Positions 6,892-23,920 of a DNA stretch of 29,631 nt are shown in pieces. The notes under the pieces were generated by a model. It was given only the letters and a program-made list of their open reading frames with translations, ran no database searches and was not told the DNA's origin. Numbering within the stretch: the first letter of the stretch is position 1; each line of letters begins with the position of its first letter. The translations under genes and the position numbers were made by a program. The stretch is from a virus, in the IMG/VR virus record IMGVR_UViG_3300023109_001535, positions 1 to 29,631 of that record. One strand, written 5' to 3'.

Positions 6892-7420
6892 TTTTACTCA
6901 ATTCTTCGAATGAACGAAATGCGAAATCAAAACAAATTCTTCCTTCATCTGCCATAGAATCATCAAGTAGTGTACGCATACCTTGAATGAGATCGTAACG
7001 ATCATCAAAGTCGTAGTACTTACCACTGCCTGGAACTTTCTTCTTAATCATCTGACCACCATGTAGATCACCAAAGTGTCTTACATATACGTGCGCAAGA
7101 AGCTTGTGATTGTCATGTTTAATAGTATCGATGTAGTTCACGTATTCGACAGTTGTATCCAGTGCATTTTCAATTGCACTCAGGTTTTCTAGTTCCATCA
7201 ATTCATGCATGTCTTCAAAGATTGCGTTCGCACGAAAGATGGAGTGAAACTTTGGATCAAGATCTACCACACCTTCTAGCGCACCGTAACAAATCATCTG
7301 ATTGAACAGATACAGTTGATAATCTTTCGGTTCAATATTTCCCGACATAAGTGCTGTTGCGAATGCAGATGTTTCTGCACGTTCATGATGTTCCCAAGTG
7401 AGTTTTTTCAAATTACTCAT
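6884..7420 (-). CDS. hemO: Heme oxygenase
   Basis: It opens heme to biliverdin, iron and CO. The N-terminus has WEHHERAE, with His12 as probable proximal heme ligand (HxxAE). The distal helix has FGDLHGGQ (116-123), matching the GDxxGGQ signature, with His where many family members have Ser. Length is 178 residues, short compared with about 240 for cyanobacterial HO1, which suggests a compact bacterial-type enzyme. The start overlaps the upstream methyltransferase-like gene by 4 bases (ATGA type) and the stop overlaps the bilin reductase by 8, so heme oxygenase and reductase are translationally linked. A perfect consensus promoter lies about 535 bases upstream. Confidence 0.92.
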   Translation of the reverse strand: MSNLKKLTWEHHERAETSAFATALMSGNIEPKDYQLYLFNQMICYGALEGVVDLDPKFHSIFRANAIFEDMHELMELENLSAIENALDTTVEYVNYIDTIKHDNHKLLAHVYVRHFGDLHGGQMIKKKVPGSGKYYDFDDRYDLIQGMRTLLDDSMADEGRICFDFAFRSFEELSKND

Positions 7421-8133
7421 TTACTATCCTCTCCAAAAGTGTACCTTGTTGTGCCGTCTTTTTTCTTTTCTACTTGCAGTTCGATCTGACCAAACAAAAA
7501 ATATCTAACTCCACGTTCTTCAGGTATCTCTTTCTCTATTATAATTTGGTTTCTCGCAGGCAAATGCGATTTAAATTCTTCTAATGAATGTACACAGTTA
7601 ATGTGACCTTCGATGTCTGTCATATTGTTTGACTGAACTGCGAAATATATATCTCTGCGTTTCTTCGTCCAATGACTTTGAAACTTTATCAACTCGTGCA
7701 TCTTCATCTCTATATGTTCGGAAGACGTATTGATTATCAGTAGGTCTACCTCTTCACCAAAGACTGGATGCTTTTCCTTTGTCAAGTCTGCCGATCTAAA
7801 CTGCACGTTATCGTATTCATTTATTATAGATGCAATGTGATTCGCTTCTTTATCGATATCAAAACAAAACATCTCCTTTACAAGTGGTGCAAGTACTGGA
7901 ACTAATATCGATCCGTACCAAGAACCAATGACTATTACTTTCATTTCTTTGTGTATTATACCACTTGTTAAGACACTTGTCAAGAGTTCTTTTTTCGAAA
8001 TGAATTGATTTTTACTAATCGAATCGAAAATGTCCACAGTTTTCTCTGGAAACCTTCTACTCACCTCAAAAATATTTTGTGCATATCCTATATCGAATTT
8101 ATTATCAAACAGATCTATTTTTTGCATACCCAA
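7417..8133 (-). CDS. SAM-dependent methyltransferase-like protein
   Basis: This 238-residue protein has VIVIGSWYGSILVPVL (about 66-81) in place of a GxGxG motif I, then an acidic strand end CFDID and a later DLLIINTSSEH that fits motif IV of class I methyltransferases. The N-terminal FEVSRRFPEKTVDIFDS recalls a family found in marine T4-like phages. Substrate is unknown. It overlaps the carbamoyltransferase upstream by 19 bases and heme oxygenase downstream by 4, so it joins the enzyme cassette to the bilin module. A consensus promoter is embedded in its own coding sequence. An alternative internal ATG at 7944 would give a protein starting MKVIVIGSWYG, which keeps the Rossmann core. Confidence 0.65.
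   Translation of the reverse strand: MGMQKIDLFDNKFDIGYAQNIFEVSRRFPEKTVDIFDSISKNQFISKKELLTSVLTSGIIHKEMKVIVIGSWYGSILVPVLAPLVKEMFCFDIDKEANHIASIINEYDNVQFRSADLTKEKHPVFGEEVDLLIINTSSEHIEMKMHELIKFQSHWTKKRRDIYFAVQSNNMTDIEGHINCVHSLEEFKSHLPARNQIIIEKEIPEERGVRYFLFGQIELQVEKKKDGTTRYTFGEDSK
7955..7983 (-). promoter_or_regulatory. Perfect sigma70 promoter inside the methyltransferase-like gene
   Basis: On the minus strand TTGACA (7983-7978), a 17-base spacer and TATAAT (7960-7955), with TGG just before the -10 (extended -10). Transcription would start near 7948, giving an early transcript that begins with heme oxygenase and bilin reductase (and perhaps a short methyltransferase form from ATG 7944) and continues into gp33-gp59. 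Confidence 0.75.
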
Positions 8134-9698
8134 TCCTCAATCACCAAATAATGTAGTCCAGTTCTCTTGAATGTATCTACGGCATTCTGTGGTGTCTCGA
8201 CAATAGGTTCCTGACAATTGAAACTCGTATTCAACAACATAGGAACGCCAGTCTCTTCTTTAAACGCACTAATCAGCTTCCAGTACTTCTCGTTAAAAGA
8301 CTTGTCTACCGTCTGTATACGTGCAGTACCGTCGACGTGAACGATGCCTGGCACTACAGATTTCTTCTCTTCTTTGACAGGCATGATGCGTGACATGTAA
8401 GGAGAGGGTTGATTCGTATCAAAGTATTCCTGATAGTCTTCGATCAATACAGATGGAGCGAATGGACGGAAGTCCTCTCGCTTCTTGATATCTCTATTGA
8501 TGATGTTCTTAATCTCAGGGTTACGAGGATCTGCGAGGATGGATCGATTACCCAGTGCACGATTACCACTCTCTGATCTACCTTGATACCAACCTACAAT
8601 CGCTCCGTTTGCAATTTCCTTCGCAATAAATGGATATATGTCATCCATATTCATTCGTTCATAATTCATATCACCAAAAATCTCTTCTTTTATTTCATGT
8701 TCAACGCCAGCATATACGGGCGGAATATGTGTATTGTTATTTAGGACATAGTCTGCCATCATATACATGCCCAAAGACTGTCCTTCATCACCAAGTGCAG
8801 GTGGAATGTACACGTTCTTGTATATCTTTGAGATCATTTCATTCATGTAACCGTTGTACGCCACACCACCACTCAGTGCCACACTGTCAGATGTTTTATG
8901 TTCTTTTATCAAGTCCATTATACGGTCATAAGTTAACTGTTGCATCGTTGCAGCGAGATCTCTGCCAGGGATCTGTTTCTTGTTACAGAAAGAGAGAATT
9001 TCAGACTCGTGCATGGGAAGAAATTTATTAGAACCCCCATCCCTAGAAATTTCATCTAATACTGGATATAGTTGTTGATCCACCTTACCGAATGCCGCTA
9101 AACCCATTACTTTACCAACTTCGTGATCTAACCAGATACGTCTATCCATTAATTTACCAACTATCGAAGTGGTTGCAATCCATGTTCTACCAAGATTGAA
9201 AGTATTGCTTAGGTTCGTAACGTTCTGATCTTTGTCGGCAATGAAACTTGTAAACCTGTTACCCCCACCATCAATCGCAAATACATCACATTCGTCAAAT
9301 CCACTTTGGATGTATGAATACGCCGCATGAGCCTGATGATGATCCGCATAGAATAGGTTATCTTTATAATAGTGTTCGAAAAGAGTCTTTGGATTGTAGT
9401 CTAATAACGCCTCTTTGTGAGGAATGAGATCTGACCAGAATCTAAAAAAAGCATTATTTCTAGGTATAGACATCGCCATGACATCATATTCATTCCACTG
9501 TGGAGTGATTACATTTTCATAGTGGAGCATCATCCCATAATCATTTGGATGACAGGATTTGAGATCTCTTGGTGTTGGATCTGCTCTTGTTCCAATTCTG
9601 TTACCTTTGACACGTGAATATCTTTCGGCAACCCAATGAGTTTTACCATCATACCATGTTTGATCATGTGATGTTAATGCAGATCCAATTAATTTCAT
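8115..9698 (-). CDS. Carbamoyltransferase (NodU/CmcH/TobZ family), full length
   Basis: It transfers a carbamoyl group from carbamoyl-phosphate, through carbamoyl-adenylate, to a hydroxyl of a sugar or other small molecule. The N-terminal Kae1-like domain has the metal-binding HHQAHA at 120-125, IDGGGN at 142-147, LSGGVAYNG at 275-283 and LGDEGQSLG at 302-310. The C-terminal YrdC-like domain (from about 365) has GWYQGRSESGNRALGNRSIL, RPFAPSV and LLNTSFNCQEPIV, all typical. Length 527 is a little short of TobZ-type enzymes but complete. Its ATG overlaps the stop of a paralogue that lacks the C-terminal domain. Acceptor is unknown; linked aminotransferase and glycosyltransferases suggest a sugar or glycan. 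Confidence 0.93.
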   Translation of the reverse strand: MKLIGSALTSHDQTWYDGKTHWVAERYSRVKGNRIGTRADPTPRDLKSCHPNDYGMMLHYENVITPQWNEYDVMAMSIPRNNAFFRFWSDLIPHKEALLDYNPKTLFEHYYKDNLFYADHHQAHAAYSYIQSGFDECDVFAIDGGGNRFTSFIADKDQNVTNLSNTFNLGRTWIATTSIVGKLMDRRIWLDHEVGKVMGLAAFGKVDQQLYPVLDEISRDGGSNKFLPMHESEILSFCNKKQIPGRDLAATMQQLTYDRIMDLIKEHKTSDSVALSGGVAYNGYMNEMISKIYKNVYIPPALGDEGQSLGMYMMADYVLNNNTHIPPVYAGVEHEIKEEIFGDMNYERMNMDDIYPFIAKEIANGAIVGWYQGRSESGNRALGNRSILADPRNPEIKNIINRDIKKREDFRPFAPSVLIEDYQEYFDTNQPSPYMSRIMPVKEEKKSVVPGIVHVDGTARIQTVDKSFNEKYWKLISAFKEETGVPMLLNTSFNCQEPIVETPQNAVDTFKRTGLHYLVIEDWVCKK

Positions 9699-10756
9699 TT
9701 GAATATATCTTCTGTTACCTCATGAACTTTTCCTGCAAATGGTTCTGGAATATCTTTCCTACCATTCAGAACATAGTTACAATGCATGTAAAGACCCATA
9801 GACTGACCTTCGTCACCAGGCGCATTTGGTACAAAAACATTTTCCCAATGTTTGGTATATTTTTCGTTGAGATATCCATTGTAAGATACACCCCCTGCAA
9901 CACACAGATTGTTTGATGTCTTATGTGGTAGGATTGTGTCTAGTACAATTTCATTTGTAAACTTCTGAAGAGTGAATGCCATGTCTTCTTTCCACATCGC
10001 ATCATTAGTGTAAGGATCGAAGAACTTTTCTTCTGGCCAATACTTACCGTCTTTCACTTTGAACTCTTCGAACATCAGATAGAAAATATCTTCCCATCTT
10101 GGTGAATACTTACCGAACCCTGCAAGTCCCATTAACTTACCTTCGTTAAGAACACCAAATCCACCAAGTCGTGTCATGACATTCCACAACCAACCAACTG
10201 GAAGATCGTTACTTAGATTGATTATCTCTTGTGTATCTGATGGAATAAAAATAGCTCTGAATGTATTACCTTGTCCATCAATGATAAAGATATCTGATTC
10301 TTCATAACCAGAGGATAGGAACGTGTGTGCGGCATGACACTGATGATGATCTGCGTAATAGACATTGTCTTTCGTCAGATGATCCCAAAGATGTTCTGGT
10401 ACATACTCGTCTGTTTCTTTGGCGAAGTCATTACCAAGTTTATGGAAGTACGCATCTCTACCATAGAGTTTCACTCCATTGACTGTTATATTAGTCGCAA
10501 AGATTTCGTCACTGTCAACGTGACTATCCCAAAGGTTATTATACATGTTTTGAAAAGGAATTTGTTCATTGATAACTTTGTTATCTAGATCCTTATACCA
10601 TCTGCGTTGTTGTTCGACACTCGCACCGTATTTTAGTTTCCAGTAACAATGTTTACGACGAGAAGAATCATCATACCTTTCATATTGTATGTGATATTCT
10701 CCATCGTATGTGTTGTGATCATGTAAGTTTAGAGGTTGGGCAAAGATCTTTTTCAT
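9695..10756 (-). CDS. Carbamoyltransferase paralogue with N-terminal domain only
   Basis: This 353-residue protein is paralogous to the next gene (8115-9698) over the N-terminal Kae1-like domain. It keeps HHQCHA (137-142), IDGQGN (159-164), VAGGVSYNGYLNEK and PGDEGQSMG. It ends at HEVTEDIFK, exactly where the paralogue has HEIKEEIFG just before its YrdC-like C-terminal domain. The stop is joined to the next ATG as ATGA, so the end is clean and not a random frameshift. In TobZ the C-terminal domain makes the carbamoyl-adenylate, so this protein should not complete the reaction alone. It may pair with the full-length partner or have a different job. The metal site looks intact. Confidence 0.85.
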   Translation of the reverse strand: MKKIFAQPLNLHDHNTYDGEYHIQYERYDDSSRRKHCYWKLKYGASVEQQRRWYKDLDNKVINEQIPFQNMYNNLWDSHVDSDEIFATNITVNGVKLYGRDAYFHKLGNDFAKETDEYVPEHLWDHLTKDNVYYADHHQCHAAHTFLSSGYEESDIFIIDGQGNTFRAIFIPSDTQEIINLSNDLPVGWLWNVMTRLGGFGVLNEGKLMGLAGFGKYSPRWEDIFYLMFEEFKVKDGKYWPEEKFFDPYTNDAMWKEDMAFTLQKFTNEIVLDTILPHKTSNNLCVAGGVSYNGYLNEKYTKHWENVFVPNAPGDEGQSMGLYMHCNYVLNGRKDIPEPFAGKVHEVTEDIFK

Positions 10757-11565
10757 TATCCAACCATCTTATCAAGTATCTTTTCCATCATTAAAGCTTC
10801 GACTCCACTGTCTCGTCTGGACAATTTCTCTGTACAGTTCTGACAATACTTCTCGAACTCGAATAATTCAAAGTTCATCATCTTATCAATATTTTCTTGT
10901 GTCACGTCAAAGTGCCGTGAACCATTGATCACCTTCTTACTACAGTGCCTAATCTTTTTCAATTCGAAATCAATTACTGGAACACGAGGGAACAAAGAAC
11001 ACATTCGTCTTGTCATCTCTGGTTCCTGATCGAACTTATCATAGGTGGGTGATCGTGAGTTGTATTCTTTGAACTGTGTGTTCTTGTGGTATAGATGCAT
11101 AAGACCATGCTTCTTTCTATACTCTTCAAAGTTCGGTGTCATAATAATCAGATTATAATTGTTGTTATCATTCACTGTTAAGAAGTCATAGTTACCTAAC
11201 TTTTCAATACGGTCTTCATAGAAGTCCAACACTAAGTGTTCCACATAATGGACTGCAGGATCATCTAAGATGTGAGGATAGAATTTCCGAATCAAACTGT
11301 TAGACAGAACAACTGGCGTGAGATTAGGATATTTCTTAATCTCATCGATGACTTCATCTAAGTTGTTAGTAAGTGCAGGTTCACCACCAAGTAGGTTGAT
11401 CCTCGCTTTGTATGGACTTAACCATTTGAGTAACGGTGATATGAAATCCATGTCCACATCTAAGTTACGCATCTCAGTTGTCCACGCAGTACAATAGTGG
11501 CAAGATTTGTTACAAGACTTTGTAAGATAAAAGTCTATACCAAATCCAAAGGCTTCTGATGACAT
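10756..11565 (-). CDS. Radical SAM protein
   Basis: The CxxxCxxC cluster-binding motif is at C18, C22 and C25 (SCNKSCHYC) and the GGEP SAM-binding motif at 60-63. It makes a 5'-deoxyadenosyl radical to act on an unknown substrate. The C-terminal part (about 190-250) has further cysteines (RRMCSLF, RHCSKK, CQNC), spaced as if to hold an auxiliary iron-sulfur cluster of SPASM/twitch type. Length is 269 residues. It shares one base with each neighbour (carbamoyltransferase paralogue and DegT aminotransferase), so the three are tightly coupled. A possible late motif lies about 32 bases before the ATG. Confidence 0.85.
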   Translation of the reverse strand: MSSEAFGFGIDFYLTKSCNKSCHYCTAWTTEMRNLDVDMDFISPLLKWLSPYKARINLLGGEPALTNNLDEVIDEIKKYPNLTPVVLSNSLIRKFYPHILDDPAVHYVEHLVLDFYEDRIEKLGNYDFLTVNDNNNYNLIIMTPNFEEYRKKHGLMHLYHKNTQFKEYNSRSPTYDKFDQEPEMTRRMCSLFPRVPVIDFELKKIRHCSKKVINGSRHFDVTQENIDKMMNFELFEFEKYCQNCTEKLSRRDSGVEALMMEKILDKMVG

Positions 11566-12662
11566 TATAAAATTCCTGTGATTGACTCTATGACTGTATT
11601 TATTTCATCGTCCGTAAGGAAAGGATTGATAGGAAGTGACATAACTGTCCTTGATGCGTTCACTGAGTTGGGTGTATCACAGTTATATCCATTCAATACT
11701 GGATTTTCTGTAAGTGAACAATCATAGTGGACTTTAGGACTCCACTTCTTTGACATCTTGATAGACTGTATTACGAAGTCTCTCGTCTCTTGATCATCGA
11801 ACCGTACCACGTATTTGTGGTAATTGTGTTGCAACGTACTACGAGGTTTCTGTGCTTGCGTGATGAGTTTTCTCTTAAACGCTGCATCATACTTCTTTGC
11901 AATCTCTTGTCGTTTGGATTGCCAGACTGTTAAGTGTTGTAATCTCCAATTGATGACCTCTGCATTTGGTACATATAGTTTAGAGTTCATAGACCCAGGC
12001 ACTACGAACAACTCTCCCTGTTTACCGTGTCGACGCATTGACATAACTCTTTGTGCCATGTCTTTATCGTTAGTCATAAACATACCACCGCCTGCAAGAC
12101 CTGCGATAACCTTGTTTGAATTGAAACTTAAAACACTGCAGTCACCAATAGTTCCTGCTTTACGACCATCAAGACTTGACCCAAGACCTTGTGCGGCATC
12201 CTCTACGAAAAGAATACCTTTGTCTTTACACCAATCTTCAATCTCTCTAGTGTCATTCATAGATCCATACAAGTGAGTATAAATGAGTGCCTTGGTATTG
12301 TCAGTGTAGTTGTCTTTGATAGACTGGAAGTCTAGGTGATAGGTGTCGATATCGATGTCTGCGAATACAGGTGTTGCACCTACACGTGTGATGCACGTTG
12401 CAGAGGATATCCATGAGAAGTTTGTCACAATAACTTCGTCACCTGCACCAATACCATTCGATGCTAGTGCGAAGTATAGTCCATCTGTTGCGTTTGCGAC
12501 ACCAACGGCATAATAACGACCTGTAAATCGTTCAATGTTCTTCTCTAGGAATTCAACACTACCATCATATTCTTTTCTCATCGCTTTGTCAAGTAGGGTA
12601 TGGTAGTGAGACTGGTTATAGTCCCACTCACGATCCCATGCATCATAAGGTATCAATTTCAA
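11565..12662 (-). CDS. DegT/DnrJ/EryC1/StrS-family aminotransferase
   Basis: This is a PLP-dependent aminotransferase of the type that converts keto-sugars to amino-sugars. The PLP lysine is K184 in SFNSNKVIAGLAGGG, D155 in FVEDAAQ contacts the PLP ring nitrogen, and TDGLYFAL near 59-66 fits the cofactor phosphate region. The length of 365 residues is normal. It is the first gene after a perfect sigma70 promoter and is followed without a gap by a radical SAM gene and the two carbamoyltransferases. The combination points to an amino- and carbamoyl-modified sugar or related metabolite, but no nucleotide-sugar dehydratase is visible in the window to supply the keto-sugar. Confidence 0.9.
   Translation of the reverse strand: MKLIPYDAWDREWDYNQSHYHTLLDKAMRKEYDGSVEFLEKNIERFTGRYYAVGVANATDGLYFALASNGIGAGDEVIVTNFSWISSATCITRVGATPVFADIDIDTYHLDFQSIKDNYTDNTKALIYTHLYGSMNDTREIEDWCKDKGILFVEDAAQGLGSSLDGRKAGTIGDCSVLSFNSNKVIAGLAGGGMFMTNDKDMAQRVMSMRRHGKQGELFVVPGSMNSKLYVPNAEVINWRLQHLTVWQSKRQEIAKKYDAAFKRKLITQAQKPRSTLQHNYHKYVVRFDDQETRDFVIQSIKMSKKWSPKVHYDCSLTENPVLNGYNCDTPNSVNASRTVMSLPINPFLTDDEINTVIESITGIL
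11597..11604 (-). promoter_or_regulatory. Possible late promoter (AATAAATA) before the radical SAM gene
   Basis: AATAAATA on the minus strand lies in the 3' end of the aminotransferase gene, 32 bases before the ATG at 11565. Position is right for a late promoter, but A at the first place and the frequency of such 8-mers in AT-rich DNA make this weak. Confidence 0.25.
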
Positions 12663-12684
12663 ACTCCTGTACGTATTTTAGTGT

Positions 12685-12713
12685 ATTATACCATTAAAGA
12701 TTCGATTTGTCAA
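12685..12713 (-). promoter_or_regulatory. Perfect sigma70 promoter upstream of the aminotransferase
   Basis: On the minus strand TTGACA (12713-12708), 17 bases, TATAAT (12690-12685), with TGG before the -10. The -35 and most of the spacer overlap the last codons of the 778-residue gene. Transcription would start about 15 bases before the aminotransferase ATG and cover the aminotransferase, radical SAM and carbamoyltransferase genes. Confidence 0.8.
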
Positions 12714-15030
12714 GTTCATATGACCCATCATCGTGTTCTTTTTCTGTCATTTTTGCAGTTTTTCCCCAAGACTCTATAAGAGCTTTTCTTTCTTCTGTCA
12801 TGGGTCTGGGTTCATAGAACTCTTCAAGTTCTGGGAAGACATCAAACAAATGCATCTCCCATCTTGTTCCCTCATAGTATTTATCTTGAAGTAACAAGTA
12901 CTCAAAAATGTCTTGAAGATCTACGTGTTTTTCTGCAGGACGACTTAATGCCGCTTGAATATCTGGCCATTCTGCATATTTTGGTATCAGATCTTTTTTG
13001 ATCTTCTCTGGTAGATTGTTAGTTCTCAACGCAGGAGGGTTCTCTAACATCGCCCAGTTCAACTGATCAATAACAGGATTTTGTTTACACCAATCAACCA
13101 CTTCATAGAACCTCATTGCACTCAAGAAAGATACTAGTCCGTTAAAGTCCACAACTGCGTTGTCAAATGCACCACAGAGTTCGACGTTCTTCTCAACCTT
13201 TGCCCAGTCAGTTCTTCTACGCATGTATTCGATTACTGGACCGACACCGTCAACTGATGCAACAACTGCAACATGATTGAAGTAAGGAATATAGGTAAGA
13301 AGATTGTGTTTACCTGCCTTGGTTTCTGTCAAGTTAGTTTGGTACTTCAGAGAAATTTTCTTTGAGTGTCCACGATCAATCAGTGCGTCCAACATTTCAT
13401 ATTGTTTTTTCATAATCAAAGGTTCACCACCAATGATTTTGATACTCTTAATATAAGGTGCAAGTTCAACAATCTGATCGACAGATCCCTGTGTCTTATC
13501 TCTTAAAACACTTTGTACAAGTCTTCCATTTGGATTAGAGTTCTCACCGTGTGTGTAAGATGACCACACTCCTTTAGTAACCACACCAGCTTTCAAACTT
13601 TTCATTCGTGTAGTAGAATTAATGAAGTCACACATGTAACAATCAATATTACATTCTGATCCATAGATCTTTAACTGGACTTCGAATATTCTTTCACTTG
13701 GTGTATTGAACTCTTCTTTATAGTAGTGAGAGTTCTTAATCTTAAACTGACCAGTTTTTCTAAACTTGTCTACCTTCGACTCAATCTTATTCCAGAAAGG
13801 TGGATCATTCGTATGGATCTTCAAACAGTTGGTACGTCTTGAACGACCATACTTCTCTTCATCTGTATAACATCGGTTGCAGATCTTTTTAACGTTCCTC
13901 AGATCAGATCCAGGCGTTGTCATCTCACGTCTGATAGAGTTCATGTATTCACTATCTTCCATCCACTCAACAAGACTTACATCTTCTACTGACACACCAC
14001 TTGATGCACCGAAACAACATGCCTGATACATACCGTCAAGTTCTGCATAGATCTGAGTAAATGGAATAGTACAGAAAAAGATATCTTTTGCCTTTGCGAG
14101 TTGAACAATTGAATTGTCCAACGCAGTTGTCATCTCACCTTTTTCGTCCATGTTCTGCCACCATGCGGCAGTACTGATATGGCCTGGAGTGTTCTTATCG
14201 CCAGGTCCGCCTTTAGTAAGATGGATGGGGTGATCTTTCCATACAACTGGTAGATCTCCAACTGGCCAGTCAAACGCCCATGCTTTTTCCTCACACCAGA
14301 AACACATTCTACATTCTGTTGTACCATCACAGGTTAAGTATGGAGATGTTCCAACGCAAGATCTACATATAGGAAACAAATCTGACATCAAACCATTTTC
14401 AATGAAAACACCTGCGACAAACTTCTTATCTACATTACAATAAGGTTGATAGATGTTGAACGGTGGCCATTTAGTACTCAGTCTCCACTCTTCTATTGTG
14501 TCGAGTTCTTGATCTCTGCGTCTTTCGCCCTTCTCAAAGAAATCTAGTTTGCGCATTTCTTCTGAAGGTGGGTTGCGTGTCATACCATCAAGACGAATCG
14601 CATTAGGATCGACTTTCTGTGCCTTTTCCATCATTGCCCAAGAAATTCTATCTACTTGAATAATCTTCGAGACTTGTCTTCGTCTCGGCATAGCTGCAAA
14701 TGTTTCATTCTGTGCAGTGATCTCATCTACCTCTGCGTGAGTAATGAAGGTTTCATCCTTGTCATTGAAGTCATGGATCTCAATAGGTGGAATATTATTG
14801 TCTGGGAATTTGTTTTGCATCCACTCAACAATCAAACGTGCCGCAACCGCATCTTTCGGTGCGTTTTGATCTCGACATGTATATGGTACAAGTTGTACTT
14901 GTGGAAAATGTTTTGAAACCAAATACATGAGACTACAAGAGTCAAGTCCACCCGACATAGAGATAGGACATAATTTTGGAATTGTGTCTGGAAACAAGTT
15001 TATTGTTTGATCACCGTGTGTAATTTTCAT
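12694..15030 (-). CDS. Fusion: QueC-like PP-loop ATPase + SPASM-like region + radical SAM
   Basis: This 778-residue protein has three parts. Residues 20-260 are a PP-loop ATP pyrophosphatase: SGGLDS at 26-31, and a cysteine cluster C222, C225, C234, C240, C243, C246 that looks like a zinc site of the QueC type. Residues 270-410 hold a SPASM/twitch-like region (YQACCFG, C384, C387). Residues 450-690 are a radical SAM core with C460-x3-C464-x2-C467 and GGEP at 534-537. Parts two and three are paralogous to the next gene upstream (15596-17026) over its whole length, sharing KGGPGD, EMTTP, EKEYGRSRR-like and LKIxTND segments. A PP-loop domain activates a carboxylate or similar group with ATP, so the fusion may carry out two steps on one substrate. 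The substrate is unknown. Confidence 0.85.
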   Translation of the reverse strand: MKITHGDQTINLFPDTIPKLCPISMSGGLDSCSLMYLVSKHFPQVQLVPYTCRDQNAPKDAVAARLIVEWMQNKFPDNNIPPIEIHDFNDKDETFITHAEVDEITAQNETFAAMPRRRQVSKIIQVDRISWAMMEKAQKVDPNAIRLDGMTRNPPSEEMRKLDFFEKGERRRDQELDTIEEWRLSTKWPPFNIYQPYCNVDKKFVAGVFIENGLMSDLFPICRSCVGTSPYLTCDGTTECRMCFWCEEKAWAFDWPVGDLPVVWKDHPIHLTKGGPGDKNTPGHISTAAWWQNMDEKGEMTTALDNSIVQLAKAKDIFFCTIPFTQIYAELDGMYQACCFGASSGVSVEDVSLVEWMEDSEYMNSIRREMTTPGSDLRNVKKICNRCYTDEEKYGRSRRTNCLKIHTNDPPFWNKIESKVDKFRKTGQFKIKNSHYYKEEFNTPSERIFEVQLKIYGSECNIDCYMCDFINSTTRMKSLKAGVVTKGVWSSYTHGENSNPNGRLVQSVLRDKTQGSVDQIVELAPYIKSIKIIGGEPLIMKKQYEMLDALIDRGHSKKISLKYQTNLTETKAGKHNLLTYIPYFNHVAVVASVDGVGPVIEYMRRRTDWAKVEKNVELCGAFDNAVVDFNGLVSFLSAMRFYEVVDWCKQNPVIDQLNWAMLENPPALRTNNLPEKIKKDLIPKYAEWPDIQAALSRPAEKHVDLQDIFEYLLLQDKYYEGTRWEMHLFDVFPELEEFYEPRPMTEERKALIESWGKTAKMTEKEHDDGSYELDKSNL

Positions 15031-15039
15031 TTGTTTGCC

Positions 15040-15609
15040 CTAACTATCTTTCATTCGTTCTAGTTCTGCGATAAAATCTATCGACTGTACAACACCTGCT
15101 TCTTTTGATTTACGCCAGAAGTCTGCAAATGCAACTATGTTTCTTTCTTTTTGATCTCTACCTGCGGCTTGGTACTCAATACACATTGGTAAATAGACTT
15201 TCACATCGTGACCTTCTTTTGCCCATGGAATTGCAGAATACGGTGTTTGATCTAATACACACCCTTTTGTATTTGTACCACCAAAGATAACTCTTCGAGG
15301 AATTACACCTTTATCAAACAACATAGTTTCGATGCTATGTATTGTGGGATATCTCACAGGATCTATTTGAACCCACCTGTGGAAGTCGTCAGCCTCTACC
15401 TGTTTGCGCAATTCGTTCATTTTAAACTCAGATTCTCTTTTATGATCTGACAAGATTATGAATTTCTTATGTCTACCAAAGAGCAAACCTCTCAGAGTAC
15501 TCCAACGAAGTTCTTCAGACGCTTCATCTGTTGACAGGGGATGTCCTTCGAAATGAATAAGGACAATAACATCTCTTAAATGAGCTTGTTTCTTTTTATT
15601 CTTTGCCAC
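15040..15609 (-). CDS. Isochorismatase-like (cysteine hydrolase fold) protein, probably degenerate
   Basis: Residues 106-150 (RRVIFGGTNTKGCVLDQT ... VYLPMCIEYQ) resemble the strand-Cys-helix part of isochorismatase/nicotinamidase enzymes, with C117 at the nucleophile position. The usual N-terminal catalytic Asp (in a LIxxDxQ stretch) is not there: the matching strand reads VIVLIHFEGHP, with H19 in its place. No clear Lys of the Asp-Lys-Cys triad can be assigned. So the fold call is moderate and hydrolase activity is doubtful. It overlaps the radical SAM gene upstream by 14 bases and lies 9 bases before the PP-loop fusion gene, so it probably serves the same pathway. Confidence 0.5.
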   Translation of the reverse strand: MAKNKKKQAHLRDVIVLIHFEGHPLSTDEASEELRWSTLRGLLFGRHKKFIILSDHKRESEFKMNELRKQVEADDFHRWVQIDPVRYPTIHSIETMLFDKGVIPRRVIFGGTNTKGCVLDQTPYSAIPWAKEGHDVKVYLPMCIEYQAAGRDQKERNIVAFADFWRKSKEAGVVQSIDFIAELERMKDS

Positions 15610-17026
15610 GTTCTAACACTCCACTATCGTACATTTTCTCGTGTAAGTCCTTACCCATCCAGTAAGGTTTCAATTCTGGATATAGATCCCATAGACTACC
15701 TTTAAAATCAGAGTTTCTATATCTTAGATCCATCCTCAACAAATAATCAAACGTGTCTTGATAACTCAGACCACCGTTATCTTCTCTTAGTACCTGTTGA
15801 ATGTCTGGGAAGTTATCATACTTAGGTATCAACTCCTGTTTAAGATCGTAAGGTAATACGTTTGCAGCTAACAGTTTGGGGTTTCTGATTTCCGACCAGT
15901 TCATCATAGACAACCAGTCGTCATTTGCTTCTGCCCATTCAATTAATTCGTAGAACCTAATAACACTCAGGAAGTTGATAACTCCATTAATATTAATTCT
16001 AACATTAGGGAACTCAAGAACTGTTTTAATATTCGCCTGGATTGTTTCCCAATTTGATTTACGTCTCATGTAATCGTTATATTTACCAACACCATCAAGA
16101 GATATTGTGAATTCAAATATATCGAAATGAGGAATGTAATCAAGAATATTCTTCTTACCGTTTGGACCATCTAATTCAAGAGATGCCATGTTAGTTTGGT
16201 ACTTAACCATTATTTCTTTAGAATGTCCAGATTCTACGATACCATCAAAGACATCGTAGAATGATTTCATTACAAGTGGTTCACCGCCAATAAATTTTAG
16301 ATTACGTATATACGGTGCAAGCCTTACAATGTTATCAGCAAACTTTGATTGCACCTGTCTCTTTGGATTATCGTTTGGCAACAGTGATCTTGCAGCGAAA
16401 ACTTTTTGTCCCTGCATCGATTGCGATTGCATAGTCTGTGATCGTGTCGACGAATCAAATGGCATACACATAAAACAATCAAGATTACATGTGTTACCAA
16501 AAGTCTTGATTTGCATTTCGAAAACTCTGGATTGCATTCTTGCCTTACCAGTGTCTCTGAAAACCTGAACTGCTTCTGCAATCATTGGCCAAATACCAAC
16601 ATCATTTGTTTGGATTTTTAGAGATGCCTGTCTACGTGATCTTCCATATTCTTTTTCTTGTCTAATACAGTGCTCGCAGACATGTTTACAAGTCTCCAAA
16701 GGATCGTTTGGAGTTGTCATCTCTTTGCGCATCTTATTGAGAGTTTTATCATGGACAAAATAGTCTTCGATACTTTTCTCTCTGATGTTTGGTGGTTCAT
16801 CATCTGGTGCTTCCATTGCCCAAGAACAAGGTAGGAATCGTCCCTTCACATCCGTATAGAGTAATTGAAACGGCGCAGAACAAAACCAGATGTCACCATC
16901 TCTGATTTGATCTTCGAAGAGTTTAAACTCTTGAAACCAAGAACTCATGTCAACAGTACCATCACCAAGGTACATGTCGCCAGGACCACCCTTCCAGAGG
17001 TGTGATTGGTTACTGTTGTTACTCAT
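15596..17026 (-). CDS. Radical SAM protein with N-terminal SPASM/twitch-like cysteines
   Basis: The radical SAM core has C180-x3-C184-x2-C187 (NTCNLDCFMC) and GGEP at 247-250. Before it, residues 45-125 hold WFCSAPF, KGRFLPCSW (C67) and C113-x3-C117-x2-C120, followed by EKEYGRSRR. This N-terminal part reads like the auxiliary-cluster region of SPASM/twitch proteins, which usually lies after the core. The full 476 residues are paralogous to the last ~510 residues of the PP-loop fusion two genes downstream. Overlaps with both neighbours (14 and 8 bases) show a single operon. Phage radical SAM proteins of this kind are, from memory, annotated as twitch-domain proteins; the substrate is unknown. 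Confidence 0.85.
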   Translation of the reverse strand: MSNNSNQSHLWKGGPGDMYLGDGTVDMSSWFQEFKLFEDQIRDGDIWFCSAPFQLLYTDVKGRFLPCSWAMEAPDDEPPNIREKSIEDYFVHDKTLNKMRKEMTTPNDPLETCKHVCEHCIRQEKEYGRSRRQASLKIQTNDVGIWPMIAEAVQVFRDTGKARMQSRVFEMQIKTFGNTCNLDCFMCMPFDSSTRSQTMQSQSMQGQKVFAARSLLPNDNPKRQVQSKFADNIVRLAPYIRNLKFIGGEPLVMKSFYDVFDGIVESGHSKEIMVKYQTNMASLELDGPNGKKNILDYIPHFDIFEFTISLDGVGKYNDYMRRKSNWETIQANIKTVLEFPNVRININGVINFLSVIRFYELIEWAEANDDWLSMMNWSEIRNPKLLAANVLPYDLKQELIPKYDNFPDIQQVLREDNGGLSYQDTFDYLLRMDLRYRNSDFKGSLWDLYPELKPYWMGKDLHEKMYDSGVLERGKE

Positions 17027-17960
17027 CTTTTAATGATCCTTTAAGTGGGTTCTCATTAATAGGTTGTTGCCAAGATATCTTTTCAACACCCTGATCTGTT
17101 TTACCATCTGGCGCAATTCTCAATCCAAAATCAAAATCTTCGTCTGACATCACTTTCCAAGGTGCTCTGTTTTCTTGTTGTTGTAAAACGGTTTGTTCTG
17201 GCGGGGGTGGAGGGTTTTCTTCCAACCAACGTCTTCTTGGAATGTTATGCCAACTCTCTAGTTGTTTGGTTCTGTGTGCCCAGTACTCTTTCTTTACTCT
17301 TGCTTCTCTATGCTTTGCATCAGGTGCGCCTAATTTAAAGTCAACGTTATCTCTGAGTAACGGATTGTCTGTACGGAAACCTCTATTAGTATTCACCACA
17401 AGTAGTGCAAAGTCTTCCTCTTTGGCGATCTCAATTGCACGTTCTAGTTCATGTTCGTTGTAACCAAAGACGATATACTGCCATACAATACAGTGTCCTA
17501 AATCACGACCTTGTTTCATACGCTTCCATACGTCATCAAAATTAGAACCAATACGATAGAGTTCACTCTTCTTGTCAATACCATCTACACCAAAGTACCA
17601 AGCGTTCTCACCTACACCATAACTATATGCTTCGTCCCACCACTTATCTGGTTTACCACTACCGACTGTTGCAATACGAACTGCTTTCTTCTTACCATCA
17701 CATATCTTTAGAAGGCTTAAGAAGTCTTTGTGGTAGATTGGATCTGAGATTTGACCACAGAAAGTAATGCCGTAATCATAGTAGTCCAATATCTTTTTAA
17801 ATTGTTCTGGTTCCAAGTCAAAAGATCTACGAATTTGCGTTTGACTCGTAGTCTTCTGTCTAATGCACTGAGGGCATTTGAAAATACATCTATGCGAAGT
17901 GTCAATGTTCGGACGACTTCGTCTCTGATTTTTTACGTACAGATCAGTTATTCGACTCAT
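17019..17960 (-). CDS. Radical SAM protein
   Basis: C25-x3-C29-x2-C32 (HRCIFKCPQC) is the cluster motif near the N-terminus. The usual GGEP is replaced by FCGQISDPIYH around residue 68-78, a variant seen in diverged radical SAM enzymes. A Pro-rich linker (ENPPPPPEQ, about 246-254) leads to a polar tail with no extra cysteine cluster that I can see. Length is 313 residues. It overlaps the glycosyltransferase/SPASM-like gene upstream by 17 bases and the next radical SAM gene by 8. Since the upstream neighbour carries SPASM-like cysteines without a radical SAM core, the two could act as partners. Confidence 0.8.
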   Translation of the reverse strand: MSRITDLYVKNQRRSRPNIDTSHRCIFKCPQCIRQKTTSQTQIRRSFDLEPEQFKKILDYYDYGITFCGQISDPIYHKDFLSLLKICDGKKKAVRIATVGSGKPDKWWDEAYSYGVGENAWYFGVDGIDKKSELYRIGSNFDDVWKRMKQGRDLGHCIVWQYIVFGYNEHELERAIEIAKEEDFALLVVNTNRGFRTDNPLLRDNVDFKLGAPDAKHREARVKKEYWAHRTKQLESWHNIPRRRWLEENPPPPPEQTVLQQQENRAPWKVMSDEDFDFGLRIAPDGKTDQGVEKISWQQPINENPLKGSLKDE

Positions 17961-19164
17961 TGAACTGCCACTCCACTTCTCTTCGTTCTTCTTTTTTTAA
18001 TTTTTCAGAACTTATATTAACTCCACATTTCTTTTTACACATGTATGGTGCACTCTCAGGGCTCCATAAAAGTGTTTGGAAAAAGTTTTCCCATTCGTCA
18101 GATGTATAGATGTCCTCTAGCTTTTCATTATTTGAAACAGCGAGGTGTTCATCTTTCAACCCATGCGCAGTAATCCACCTATGAACAGGCGGATCATCTA
18201 ACCAACAGCAAGGTAGCATAAACCCATCTGAAGTATATGCTGCCCCTTTACTATTGTCACCATGTTTAGGACCTTTATTAAATAAAAATGCGAGACACCT
18301 TGGTTGTATTTTCATGAGATTTTTAAACGCTTTTATAATTGGTTGAATATCAGGTTTGGTATTACCCTCTTTTAATCTATTCCAGTACACATAACCACCG
18401 TCTCTGAGAGATTTATCTCTTTTGTAAATCATCTCCTTGCCGTAGTATTTGCATTCCTGAATAATGCGTGGTGCAGGATCAAAGTGATCTTTTGTATAAA
18501 CGTATGTATTGAAAATACCCAGAAAGTTTTCTACTGGGACAAATATATTATTGAATGCAGGATTTACCCAGTGTTCATCATATGTGATGATACCGTGATC
18601 GAAATATTTGGGGAGTTCTCTTGCCGCTACAGTATAGTATATCATATTCGTACCCAAGAAAAGGTATTCGAACTGAACATCATCTTTGTGTTCTTTGTAG
18701 ATTTTAAAGTTAATATGTTTTTCGAAGTGTTCACCAACACCTTCAGGATACACATCTGTATCACACAAGTCTTCTACTTGTTCTGGGTTAAAGAACTCTA
18801 TAGCTTTGGGATATTCGGTTGGATGGTTTGATGAATATACACTGATCAGTCTTCTAGAGAAAAGTTCTCTTAAGTTTTTCTTTGATCTATTGTCATAACC
18901 ATCAAAGTTTTTGTACGCTTGGGTAACCATACTTCTACCCATTACCATCGTTATGGGGTATTGGACATTATATTTAAAGTAAAGATATTTGGAATGGACG
19001 TATTTACTATTAATCGTATCGATATAATCTTGTTGATCATATAAACGATGTGGTACAACAACTACACGTGCACGAACACCACTTTCATTTAAGAGAGTAC
19101 AATATTCATAACTGTACAACAATAAACCATCTACTGGTTTTGATGTAACCACAATGTTAATCAT
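17944..19164 (-). CDS. Glycosyltransferase-like protein with C-terminal SPASM-like cysteines
   Basis: This 406-residue protein starts INIVVTSKPVDGLLLYSYEY, which looks like the first Rossmann strand and helix of a GT-B glycosyltransferase. DPAPRIIQECKYYGKEMIY (about 229-247) followed by GGYVYW resembles the donor-binding region of GT-B enzymes. From about 290 the character changes: KGAAYTSDGFMLPCCWLDD (C319, C320) and C376, C380 look like a SPASM/twitch peptide or iron-sulfur region. The combination is unusual. It overlaps the radical SAM gene downstream by 17 bases. The glycosyltransferase call is tentative, and the SPASM-like call rests on cysteine spacing and the DGxxLPCCW segment. Confidence 0.55.
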   Translation of the reverse strand: MINIVVTSKPVDGLLLYSYEYCTLLNESGVRARVVVVPHRLYDQQDYIDTINSKYVHSKYLYFKYNVQYPITMVMGRSMVTQAYKNFDGYDNRSKKNLRELFSRRLISVYSSNHPTEYPKAIEFFNPEQVEDLCDTDVYPEGVGEHFEKHINFKIYKEHKDDVQFEYLFLGTNMIYYTVAARELPKYFDHGIITYDEHWVNPAFNNIFVPVENFLGIFNTYVYTKDHFDPAPRIIQECKYYGKEMIYKRDKSLRDGGYVYWNRLKEGNTKPDIQPIIKAFKNLMKIQPRCLAFLFNKGPKHGDNSKGAAYTSDGFMLPCCWLDDPPVHRWITAHGLKDEHLAVSNNEKLEDIYTSDEWENFFQTLLWSPESAPYMCKKKCGVNISSEKLKKEERREVEWQFNESNN

Positions 19165-19167
19165 CGT

Positions 19168-19746
19168 CTATTCACTTTCTAATAGGTACTTGGAGAACCA
19201 AGCCTGTTCACGTTTCATCTCTTTATATCTTTGGTTGAACAGATATATTGGAGCGTCTGTTTCATCTAATACAGTTCGAAAGGATACGTATCCATCTTCC
19301 TCTGTGTACCGTTTTGGTATTGTATGTTCATAGAGGTATTGATCCATGCCTCGTCTGTAGTACAACAAACAGTACTCCTCGTCTTTATGAAAACGTTCAG
19401 TTACGTAAGATGCATCGCCTGCCCAAGATATAATAGAAGAGTTGAATGGAGTGTGAAACTCTTCACGCCAGTGCGCATGACACACTGTAAAATCTTTTCT
19501 TATAAAATGATTGCAGTCACCTTTGATGATTACATCTAAGTCGAAGTATATGTTTTGTCCGTCTTTGTATTTATCAAACATTTGAAGTTTATTGAACACA
19601 CCATAATCGTCATCGTACAGATCTTCATCTATGCAAACGAACTCATCATAGTCTAATCCTGAGTAAGTGTCAACCATATGTTTAAGATTGTCTTCATACC
19701 ACTTATCGTATTTGGTGCCTGTTCGGACACAAATCACTCTTAACAT
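19168..19746 (-). CDS. Small GT-A-like glycosyltransferase
   Basis: The 192-residue protein begins MLRVICVRTGTKYDKWYEDNL and has IYFDLDVII at 67-74, where DLD (69-71) fits the metal- and donor-binding DxD of GT-A enzymes. NSSIISWAGD follows, like the acceptor-side segment of related enzymes. It is paralogous in outline to the next gene upstream (same RxGxKY...YE start and DxD). The start shares one base with the upstream stop. Compact length suggests a single catalytic domain. The transferred sugar cannot be told from sequence. Confidence 0.65.
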   Translation of the reverse strand: MLRVICVRTGTKYDKWYEDNLKHMVDTYSGLDYDEFVCIDEDLYDDDYGVFNKLQMFDKYKDGQNIYFDLDVIIKGDCNHFIRKDFTVCHAHWREEFHTPFNSSIISWAGDASYVTERFHKDEEYCLLYYRRGMDQYLYEHTIPKRYTEEDGYVSFRTVLDETDAPIYLFNQRYKEMKREQAWFSKYLLESE

Positions 19747-20453
19747 TACTTAACCCTTGTATATTGATCGAAGTATTTCCATGTATGGGGTAGATTGTCT
19801 TCATGGGTGAAGTGAACGAGTTTGATCTCTTCATTAAAGTCACCAAACCACGCATACTCTAAACCAGTAGCGTGGGCATATTTTGCGTTGAAATGTTTTT
19901 GCCATTGAGTGTATACTATAGGTGACATATTATCATCACTCAACCATCTTGTTTGCCATGCGTTAGGAAGTGTAATAAGTTCAAGTTGTTCCTTAACTGC
20001 ATCTTCAACAAAATACTGTTCACCATTAACTGGGCCACTTGTAATTCCTGCACGGATATACAGACTTTGGAAATGCTGTGGATCTGACATAAACTTTTCG
20101 TAGATGTAGTTACAGTCTTTAGGATAGTATTTGTAGAACCCACCGTTAATAGAATAGTCTGGATGTAGAGTATCTCTCCACCAGGCTCTCATTGCAAGAA
20201 ACTGACCACGTTCAACTGGGTAATCGAATACTTTCTTAAAATCGTTGATGAGTAGAAGATCAATATCCATCACGCACACTGGTTCTTCATCTGCAAGGTT
20301 CATCACAGACATTTTATTCCACTGTAGTTTTACTGAGGGATCGTATGCTTCTCGAATCCAAACGAGTTCGTAATCATCTCCAAGTTTGGATTCTAAATAA
20401 TCTTCGTATTCGGGACCATACTTATTCCCGATTCTCACAACAAATATTTTCAT
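19746..20453 (-). CDS. GT-A-like glycosyltransferase
   Basis: This 235-residue protein begins MKIFVVRIGNKYGPEYEDYL and has VCVMDIDLLLIND with D63-x-D65 in the DxD position. SINGGFYKYYP near 125-135 fits the loop after the second half of the GT-A fold. A tryptophan-rich end (AWQTRWLSDDN, HTWKYF) may bind a sugar acceptor. It lies 8 bases after the 168-residue gene, itself just after the structural genes, so it is likely transcribed with virion proteins. Acceptor and sugar are unknown; glycosylation of a virion or surface component is a reasonable guess. Confidence 0.65.
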   Translation of the reverse strand: MKIFVVRIGNKYGPEYEDYLESKLGDDYELVWIREAYDPSVKLQWNKMSVMNLADEEPVCVMDIDLLLINDFKKVFDYPVERGQFLAMRAWWRDTLHPDYSINGGFYKYYPKDCNYIYEKFMSDPQHFQSLYIRAGITSGPVNGEQYFVEDAVKEQLELITLPNAWQTRWLSDDNMSPIVYTQWQKHFNAKYAHATGLEYAWFGDFNEEIKLVHFTHEDNLPHTWKYFDQYTRVK

Positions 20454-20461
20454 GGTATAGT

Positions 20462-20968
20462 TTATTCACTTTCAGGTGCAGGTGTCTCTTCTACTGGTGT
20501 TTCAATTGCAGTAACAATGTCTAAAACTTCTTTGTAAGTTTTTGCCTGTCGGATTTTTCTTTTGAGATCACTGTCTTCACAGTTTACAACAACCTCTTGA
20601 TCAAAAGCTTCGATCTTGAATTTGAATAGTTCTTCTGCAGTAATATCATCTTCAGTCATTGCCAGAAGACCGTAGATTTTCTTGAAACCAAGTTCTGTAC
20701 TGTCAATAATACCTTCACGTTCGGCAATTAACATAACTTCTTTCTCGAAACCTTTACGGGCACGACGACGATACTCACGTGTCGCTTCTTCGATTTTATC
20801 TTCATCCCAACCCTCTGCAACGAGGTCACGATAGTTCGCATCCTTCTCGTCCACAGGACAGAAGAACCTACGGATTTTGTCATCTCCGCCACGCCATTCA
20901 ATGTTAATAATTGTTTTCTCTTGGTCAAAATAGAAAACATCAATGATGTTGTTACTAAATTCCGCCAT
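20462..20968 (-). CDS. Conserved phage protein of unknown function
   Basis: This is a 168-residue, acidic, mainly helical protein. It has FFCPVDEKDANYRDLVAEG, a basic helix (EYRRRARKGFEKEVMLIAE) and a proline/glutamate-rich tail (PVEETPAPESE). A similar protein appears, from memory, near structural genes of other marine T4-like phages without assigned function. It lies 10 bases after one structural gene and 8 bases before a glycosyltransferase. No enzyme motif, signal peptide or membrane segment is seen. Confidence 0.7.
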   Translation of the reverse strand: MAEFSNNIIDVFYFDQEKTIINIEWRGGDDKIRRFFCPVDEKDANYRDLVAEGWDEDKIEEATREYRRRARKGFEKEVMLIAEREGIIDSTELGFKKIYGLLAMTEDDITAEELFKFKIEAFDQEVVVNCEDSDLKRKIRQAKTYKEVLDIVTAIETPVEETPAPESE

Positions 20969-20978
20969 TTTCCACTCC

Positions 20979-21956
20979 TTAAGTTCTTGTCACATATAAT
21001 CCATATGTGGATATCGTTGTTGCTACCCCATTTGGGAATTCTTGTGATCTGTAATCGTCTACGCCTACAAATCTAGTTGTATATCCTGTTGCACTCGTAC
21101 CATTCAATCTAGTGTCTGCAATTGCTGAACCACATAGTGTTCCAGATCCATCAGGTGCTTTCAAAAAGTAGGATAGTTGATACCCTGCTTCTGACTCTGC
21201 TGCGTATTTTACAAATCCCCCAAGGAAATTGTCCCAAGTTGCGGCAGGTGGTGCTCTTAGATCTGTAACGCCACCAGTAATATCAATAGCGAGAGGAATA
21301 ATGGCACCTGCAGTTGCGTCACCATTAAACCTATGTAAGTAATAATTATTTATGTCGATTGGTTGATCTAATGATTCGGGAATACCTGCTGATGTGAACA
21401 GTGTTGTATCCGCACGAGTATCAATGAAGATAGGATCTGCTGATACCAGAGTTGCACCTGCCAAAGAGTTGGAAGTACTGATCGTGTAAGATCCACCCTT
21501 CTTACCAGTATCTGTCTCTCCATTACCTGATGCGATCATACCAATCGCTTCATCAACAAATGTATCAATCATATCTTGTTGCGTCATCGCTTTGATTTCA
21601 CCTGCTGTGGCATCCCAATAAACTGGATAACTGAGGTTCGCATCTGAAGGATAAGCTTGTGGTCCGTTTGTTGTCTGGTTAACGTGATCATATGTCAATG
21701 AGACTTGTGATATATCAGCAGTGGCTGCTTCAGCCACGTATGTTACGGTTCCAATTGATGCGGCACCTGCTTGCATTCTTGTGTCAGTCAACACATCTCC
21801 TGCATTTCCACCAGTCGCAACACGACTGAGAATAACAGAAGGGTCAAGAGAGTATTGATAAACCATTCGTTCGCAGACATCGGTTACCTGCGCCGTGGTC
21901 ATTGATCTCATATCATTGTTTACTGTGTCCCAATATAGTGGCGAACGTACTGTCAT
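20979..21956 (-). CDS. Virion structural protein (paralogue A)
   Basis: It begins MTVRSPLYWDTVNNDMRSMT and is clearly paralogous to the next gene upstream, which begins MTVRIPLYW. Each protein holds an internal repeat: an LYW...MT element at the start and a second one near the middle (here YPVYWDATAGEIKAMTQQD), each followed by a helix. DTRMQAG and DTRLNG also recur. Composition is rich in Thr, Ser, Ala and Gly with few charged clusters, like tail or neck-fibre proteins. From memory, MTVRSPLYY-type proteins are virion-associated in cyanophages. The exact place in the virion is unknown. Confidence 0.75.
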   Translation of the reverse strand: MTVRSPLYWDTVNNDMRSMTTAQVTDVCERMVYQYSLDPSVILSRVATGGNAGDVLTDTRMQAGAASIGTVTYVAEAATADISQVSLTYDHVNQTTNGPQAYPSDANLSYPVYWDATAGEIKAMTQQDMIDTFVDEAIGMIASGNGETDTGKKGGSYTISTSNSLAGATLVSADPIFIDTRADTTLFTSAGIPESLDQPIDINNYYLHRFNGDATAGAIIPLAIDITGGVTDLRAPPAATWDNFLGGFVKYAAESEAGYQLSYFLKAPDGSGTLCGSAIADTRLNGTSATGYTTRFVGVDDYRSQEFPNGVATTISTYGLYVTRT

Positions 21957-23188: not shown

Positions 23189-23196
23189 TATTTATG
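23189..23196 (-). promoter_or_regulatory. Late promoter (CATAAATA) for the structural operon
   Basis: CATAAATA on the minus strand, 46 bases before the 61-residue gene ATG and outside any CDS, matches the NATAAATA late motif of T4-like marine phages. It would be read with the phage late sigma (gp55 type) and gp33. It lies just past the 3' end of the tmRNA. Confidence 0.7.
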
Positions 23197-23204
23197 CAAT
23201 ATGT

Positions 23205-23471
23205 AAAATGTCCACACTTCTGTTGCTAGGCAGTGGACTCTCCCCCTGTGATTACGCCGCTAGACGTAACTCAGATGGTGCGAAATTATCATTTGCACTT
23301 GTAGTTTTTGACCGAATAACGTAGGTCAACACGATAATCTCCACTCAACTAGCCCGTCTGTCGATCCTAGTTCATCCCCATCAAAAGCACACTCAGTAAA
23401 TGTGTTTATGGTGGAGATGTGGGGTACTGCCCCCCAGTCCAGTCCGTCTTCGAATCGCTTCATCGATTACA
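23205..23471 (-). ncRNA. ssrA: tmRNA (SsrA), circularly permuted two-piece form
   Basis: On the minus strand the acceptor piece comes first, about 23471-23409, ending in an encoded CCA (23411-23409). A short intervening segment (23408-23380) follows, then the coding piece from 23379. The coding piece begins GGGGATG (23379-23373), which pairs with CATCTCC (23419-23413) into a 7-bp acceptor stem with a G-U as the third pair, the alanine identity signal. A TAGGATCGACAG stretch matches the conserved tmRNA D-region. The T-arm is TGGGG/CCCCA with a 7-base loop GGCAGTA. The tag frame, 23296-23252, reads ANDNFAPSELRLAA then TAA, a typical SsrA tag ending LAA. A GTCCAC/GTGGAC hairpin (23238-23233 with 23215-23210) lies near the 3' end. 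Ends of the mature pieces are approximate. Ribosome rescue is the expected role. Confidence 0.95.
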
Positions 23472-23477
23472 TCTTTA

Positions 23478-23506
23478 CTTATACTCTATCATACTGCATT
23501 TGTCAA
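23478..23506 (-). promoter_or_regulatory. sigma70-type promoter of the tmRNA
   Basis: On the minus strand TTGACA (23506-23501), a 17-base spacer, TATAAG (23483-23478). Transcription would start near 23471, just before the acceptor piece. Confidence 0.75.
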
Positions 23507-23584: not shown

Positions 23585-23920
23585 ATGTCAGAAGACAATA
23601 AAAAGACCATCGACGCATCTGCAGTAGCAGGAATGGATGTGAACGGTGATGGACACATTTCAGCAGAAGAACTGGAAATGCATTTAGAGTTCAAACGCAA
23701 AGCGCTTGAAGATCAAGATGCACAAAGAGATGCCATGAGAAACATGACATGGTTTGCTCTAATGGGTATGCTACTTTATCCGTTCGCAATTATCCTTACG
23801 TCATATTTAGGTCTAGACCAAGCGGCAAATATTGTTGGTGATATCGCACCTACGTACTTTGTTGCAATTTCAGCTTTGGTTGCTGCATTCTTTGGTGCAG
23901 ATGCGATCCGCAAGAAATAA
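23585..23920 (+). CDS. EF-hand membrane protein, holin-like candidate
   Basis: The start is placed at ATG 23585 because AGGAG lies at 23574-23578; an upstream in-frame ATG at 23555 lacks such a site. The 111-residue product has one EF-hand loop at 18-29 (DVNGDGHISAEE; D18, N20, D22, H24, S26, E29). A polar helix and two hydrophobic segments (about 55-75 and 88-107) follow, then a basic end RKK. Proteins of this layout occur, from memory, in other marine T4-like phages and are sometimes proposed as holins. It is expressed from the palindromic late promoter and lies near a secreted cell-wall hydrolase, which supports a lysis role, but holin function is inferred. Confidence 0.75.
   Translation: MSEDNKKTIDASAVAGMDVNGDGHISAEELEMHLEFKRKALEDQDAQRDAMRNMTWFALMGMLLYPFAIILTSYLGLDQAANIVGDIAPTYFVAISALVAAFFGADAIRKK

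Follow-up and report, generated by a model that had tools for sequence, protein, structure and literature searches.

A marine T4-like phage with a two-piece tmRNA gene, and putative small protein genes in the intervening segments of its relatives

The window, i.e. the whole analysed stretch of 29,631 nucleotides from the virus record IMGVR_UViG_3300023109_001535, contains on its minus strand (23471-23205) a complete circularly permuted (two-piece) tmRNA gene. The gene is very probably an intact, phage-owned tmRNA of the alphaproteobacterial type in a marine T4-like phage, serving ribosome rescue with host factors. In permuted tmRNA genes of phages, the intervening segment is probably a site where small protein genes recur; in the window this site is in its empty state. 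Two-piece tmRNAs in marine phages are already known and the gene in the window is an added member of this group; a small protein gene within the spacer was found nowhere described.

ARAGORN predicted a permuted tmRNA at c[23161,23501] with the tag ANDNFAPSELRLAA*. On the same strand, the Rfam models RF04321 (tmRNA_permuted) and RF01849 (alpha_tmRNA) matched at 23471-23252 with 114.4 bits (cut-off 47, E 6.4e-22) and at 23510-23209 with 109.9 bits (cut-off 50, E 2e-29), respectively. Both scores exceed twice their cut-offs and the RF01849 match covers the full model (positions 1-355). The agreement of ARAGORN with the two models bears out the first-pass annotation in its proposal of a phage-encoded permuted tmRNA. 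Its outer bounds (23205-23471) were accurate to a few bases, the 3' end of the coding piece being uncertain by several bases, and all the parts that it had read on the minus strand were located: the acceptor piece with CCA, the 29-base segment and the coding piece with the tag. The CCA-bearing acceptor piece is encoded upstream of the coding piece, which begins with GGGGATG at 23379. The acceptor stem of 7 bp (GGGGAUG/CAUCUCC) has the G-U third pair described earlier (G3-U70) and, together with the T arm, extends across both pieces, while the tag frame is accompanied by a resume region and has a hydrophobic AA end. The T loop GGCAGUA corresponds to the type GGC(A/G)GUA of the alphaproteobacterial alignment. 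Upstream, a promoter-like sequence TTGACA-17-TATAAG (23506-23478) agrees with the consensus in 11 of 12 positions; it was missed by a standard promoter scan, which demands T as last base, and found by direct search. From its spacing, the start of transcription is predicted near 23471. The orthologue in the related genome G002 has TTGACA-17-TATAAT at the same place (12/12 positions), and no promoter-like sequence was seen at the equivalent place in a third genome, G003.

Table 1 Features of the permuted tmRNA gene and its surroundings in the window
Feature	Position	Strand	Basis
-35-like TTGACA of a sigma-70-type promoter, upstream of the tmRNA	23501..23506	-	sequence
-10-like TATAAG	23478..23483	-	sequence
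Acceptor piece, 3' part of the tRNA-like domain, encoded CCA ending at 23409	23409..23471	-	RF04321, RF01849, ARAGORN
T stem-loop UGGGG-GGCAGUA-CCCCA	23420..23436	-	sequence, alpha_tmRNA consensus, covariation in 71 viral cores
Intervening segment, 29 nt, presumed excised; hairpin fold; 'empty', without ORF	23380..23408	-	sequence
Coding piece: 5' acceptor strand, D-like region, tag ORF, 3' stem-loop	23205..23379	-	Rfam, sequence
Acceptor-stem 5' strand GGGGAUG, pairs with CAUCUCC (23413-23419)	23373..23379	-	sequence; covariation of pairs 5 and 6
Tag reading frame ANDNFAPSELRLAA + stop	23252..23296	-	ARAGORN, sequence
3' stem-loop GUCCAC...GUGGAC around the alpha-type motif AGCAACAGAA	23210..23238	-	sequence, alpha_tmRNA alignment
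CATAAATA, putative T4-late-promoter-like motif, downstream, ahead of the next gene	23189..23196	-	kept in G002, G003

The assignment to a T4-like phage made in the first-pass annotation agrees with a gene block of gp32, gp41, UvsX and gp59 homologues in the window (phrog_224, phrog_19, phrog_97 and phrog_269 in PHROG). The window is a 29.6-kb fragment, and the viral loci compared with it are metagenomic contigs, some possibly mis-sorted. In the relatives, the tmRNA lies upstream of gp33-gp59-gp32 on the same strand, usually separated from them by a heme oxygenase and a bilin reductase gene. In the window and G002, about 14 kb of further sequence lies between the tmRNA and the heme oxygenase gene, and G003 has a longer version; the additional genes in the window and G002 code for radical SAM proteins, Nol-like carbamoyltransferases and an aminotransferase. 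This cargo island occupies 8115-21000 (-) in the window, with several radical SAM proteins, two Nol-like carbamoyltransferases and the aminotransferase, and G002 keeps the order. The heme oxygenase adjoins a ferredoxin-dependent bilin reductase at 6211-7420 (-), a PcyX-like cassette located near the tmRNA in most relatives. A small membrane protein with an EF-hand-like stretch (23588-23920, +) is encoded divergently from the tmRNA and is its neighbour in relatives as well. Upstream of the tmRNA in G002, two tRNAs surround a sub-threshold match to the manA RNA (L249:483-821; 40.6 bits, cut-off 55.2).

In G002 (locus L249) and G003 (L247), the tmRNA has the identical position, flanked by the divergent EF-hand gene and a gene for 61 amino acids. 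A three-way alignment showed that stems and tag are kept: the tags of the window and G003 differ only synonymously, including TAA/TAG, and the 3' stem varies on both sides in the orthologues around an unchanged loop. Among 71 distinct viral cores, retrieved with a pattern in which the CTCC/GGGG half was the only fixed part of the acceptor stem, the acceptor pairs 5 and 6 and the T-stem pairs 1-3 each occur as at least four pair types and are paired in 67-71 of the cores; the near-constant G-U third pair is not independent evidence because the search pattern fixed CTCC and GGGG. In a tmRNA tree with weak deep branches and a bootstrap that was not fully settled, the window grouped with G003 (100/99), both with G002 (100/99), and all three inside a phage clade of 15 (98/98) that stands apart from the sampled bacteria. 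With structure and tag kept in syntenic copies and its grouping among phage tmRNAs, the gene looks maintained and no relic. In this T4-like group, the two-piece tmRNA has a fixed site at which it is stably kept, and this speaks for selection by the phages; the gene in the window is a well-anchored extra case of phage-encoded ribosome rescue.

Contrary to the first-pass annotation, such genes are not rare. Of the 53 two-piece tmRNA structures that Buchholz et al. counted in genomes of phages, 50 were marine or aquatic, and permuted tmRNAs occurred in 17 of 47 contigs similar to phage Melnitz (Buchholz et al. 2022, PMC9004378). One strict pattern retrieved at least 120 viral stretches. Permuted tmRNAs were present in 13 of 80 loci picked only by gp32 similarity (ARAGORN) and in 9 of 38 whole records (Rfam), both lower bounds from a material consisting mostly of fragments. 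The lineages previously listed for permuted tmRNAs, alphaproteobacteria and some cyanobacteria, stand but have to be completed by a third, the Betaproteobacteria. Six viral permuted tmRNAs (L105, L126, L154, L163, L174 and L186) have unusually long predicted tags of 21-31 residues, e.g. ANDNALSNVTFVDFSAPVTAVNEDFALAA.

From the gene, its structure, tag, conservation and position, we infer the following course of processing and function. The sigma-70-type promoter would yield a single precursor RNA, in which host RNase P may cut before G23379 and 3' processing may free the CCA at 23409. The 29-nt segment would be lost, with the two pieces held together by the acceptor and P2 helices. Recognition of the G3-U70 pair by alanyl-tRNA synthetase would lead to charging with alanine, and host SmpB would deliver the tmRNA to ribosomes that have stalled on a broken message. 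Such a ribosome would then move to the tag frame, add (A)ANDNFAPSELRLAA and end at UAA, and the LAA end would direct the tagged product to host ClpXP. Cleavage by tRNA-processing enzymes, alanylation, SmpB delivery, tagging and proteolysis are here presumed from known tmRNA biology. A two-piece tmRNA was reportedly described for Caulobacter by Keiler and colleagues in 2000 (cited in PMC9004378). No SmpB gene was detected in the complete Melnitz genome or in 13 partial phage records (the control was positive in 10 of the 14 genomes), and host SmpB is therefore the likely partner, although this phage might encode an SmpB outside the 29.6-kb fragment. The benefit for the phage may be that ribosomes remain available during infection, when host RNA is degraded. 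That the phage tmRNA takes over or backs up ribosome rescue, as stated in the first-pass annotation, is a reasonable inference.

Other origins and roles have to be weighed against this ribosome-rescue function. The gene might be a relic or a recent capture of host DNA, i.e. the scar of a prophage att site, a transduced host tmRNA or an assembly join, since tmRNA genes are common integration sites and gene exchange with a temperate phage has been considered (Buchholz et al. 2022, PMC9004378). However, the gene is complete with an intact tag, related phages have orthologues at the same place, and it nests among phage tmRNAs in the tree. In addition, a comparison with 385 alphaproteobacterial genomes yielded short best matches, reaching at most 77% identity over about 90 bases or 97% identity over a stretch of 36. 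Considering the weak bacterial matches, the shared phage locus, the tree and the kept structure, we rejected the host-DNA scar or recent capture, which is extremely improbable.

A transcript with the structure of a tmRNA could also act as a decoy, binding up SmpB or alanyl-tRNA synthetase and thereby blocking trans-translation in the host; an inhibitory tmRNA-like RNA has been reported for mycobacteriophage DS6A (PMC11915505). The DS6A RNA lacks a tag frame, whereas tag, stop and resume region of the window tmRNA are intact and under constraint, which makes a decoy quite improbable. The tagging of host proteins, with degradation redirected to recycle amino acids or to remove host factors, was proposed for Melnitz (Buchholz et al. 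2022, PMC9004378) and would fit the early-type appearance of the window promoter. A tmRNA, however, picks stalled ribosomes and not host proteins as such, and we consider this role unlikely. Compared with the benefit of freeing ribosomes, host-protein tagging and a decoy role are less likely.

In some relatives, ribosome rescue by the two-piece tmRNA might extend to messages from its own gene. In a phage whose gp32 is 85% identical to that of the window, the intervening segment of the orthologous tmRNA is filled, whereas that of the window is empty. The G002 orthologue has an intervening segment of 149 nt with the open frame MNWDWHWISWFRGVPFQWGEFRLNNGNPYKSYRFGPLLIRVFMKGLK and a Shine-Dalgarno-like site. 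This segment and the 29-nt segment of the window have common ends (TAAACACAT ... GTGTG-TTTGA-like), so that one and the same site is empty in the window and G003 and filled in G002. Neither the window nor its tmRNA contains a copy of the nested proteins, tblastn matches in the window being the tmRNA itself. At the locus linked to gp33-gp59-gp32, the filled segments of many relatives comprise 100-190 nt with a Shine-Dalgarno-like site and a putative gene of 30-55 codons. Two scans for tmRNAs with long segments yielded 223 distinct segments in 161 clusters, and 78 clusters had an ATG frame of at least 25 codons inside the segment, compared with 23.8 expected from dinucleotide shuffles. A sample of further long-segment loci had the surrounding tmRNA confirmed by Rfam, and many also adjoin gp59 and gp32.

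The nested peptides fall into several mutually unrelated families, defined by the in-segment peptides only; a cluster linked solely via 3' tmRNA sequence was split. The MNWDWHW family (MNWDWHWISWF...) was found in 45 viral loci, with nested frames at L249:1600-1743, L027:4447-4578 and in L258-L302 and a relative in L027/L028. Its ATG is located mostly exactly 18 nt after the CCA and has a Shine-Dalgarno-like site; Rfam confirmed the surrounding tmRNA in most loci tested, and L265, L267 and L292 have the gene without a tmRNA. The larger MKNPLVREVSKWMFRAYIVWSICADITLLAGIIYLVFF family (L426, L429, L444, L472 and others) is unrelated to it and codes for a short membrane-like peptide. In-segment pN/pS was 0.31 in 37 loci of the MKNPLVREVSKWMFRAYIVWSICADITLLAGIIYLVFF-type family, the other two frames of which had values of 0.87 and 1.70 and were full of stops. 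It was 0.21 in 19 loci of the MNWDWHW family (from a codon alignment, one member starting at a different codon), 0.30 in a family of 7 loci, 0.46 in 6 loci of a Melnitz-type family, and 0.45, 0.22, 0.29 and 0.32 in smaller families. Shuffles and pN/pS treat non-independent sequences and the counts are indicative; the interpretation of the nested frames as protein-coding genes is supported by these patterns. Some families also occur free-standing, one directly upstream of a tmRNA and in phage C48C1. The family that is free-standing in C48C1 matches Pfam DUF6356; the remaining nested families had no firm matches. In L268, a CCA acceptor end is directly followed by a frame of a nested family (1110-1250), and a separate beta-type permuted tmRNA (1826-2047; RF01850, 104.3 bits) lies about 580 nt downstream of this frame.

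In 18 of 19 frames of the MNWDWHW family, the reading frame passes the presumed cleavage site and stops inside the tRNA-like domain, in G002 at GGGGCTGAAATAG. With the stop codon in the tRNA-like domain, as in several families, only the uncut precursor would allow full translation; once excised, the segment would be a non-stop message and hence a natural substrate of the same tmRNA. This would be a feedback between the message of the nested gene and the tmRNA. A survey of tmRNAs from 2025 mentions no protein genes in intervening segments, where it does note a tRNA gene and a repeat (PMC11915505). Text searches of the literature, covering few subscription papers, found no report of protein genes in tmRNA intervening segments. 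If true, the spacer genes would represent a new overlapping-gene arrangement in which RNA maturation competes with protein translation. Annotation loses both genes: ARAGORN gave no call for the tmRNAs of G002 and G003, both found by Rfam, so that published ARAGORN counts are probably low, and the Melnitz record has only SsrA over its nested frame.

The closest described system is the two-piece tmRNA of the cultured marine Methylophilales phage Melnitz (Kyanoviridae) (Buchholz et al. 2022, PMC9004378). Like the window, this T4-like phage has an alpha-type permuted tmRNA with an ANDN...LAA-type tag, located on the same strand upstream of gp33-gp59-gp32; its gene order is tmRNA, late-transcription coactivator, helicase loader and ssDNA-binding protein. 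In contrast, its intervening segment has 142 nt with an open frame versus 29 nt in the window, a glutamine riboswitch (RF01739, 52.8 bits) directly follows its tmRNA and was looked for and absent next to that of the window, and in the window additional genes spanning about 17 kb separate the tmRNA from gp33. The Melnitz ssrA segment has an unannotated nested frame, MFKWLSKTRLVVITRDYFRERNRKADAKIPKYLSG... (L202:3888 onward; MZ577097.1 46096-46227), and related frames occur in L450 and L538. The alphaproteobacterial permuted tmRNAs (RF01849) resemble the window in gene order, the T loop GGC(A/G)GUA, GGAUCGAC, tag type and the 3' GCAACAGAA stem-loop. They differ in score, with 158-203 bits in three Rickettsiales-like genomes versus 109.9 bits in the window, and in the region after the tag, which is shortened in the window (model positions missing). 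The merged permuted-tmRNA model (RF04321; PMC11915505) is matched over its full length with no material difference.
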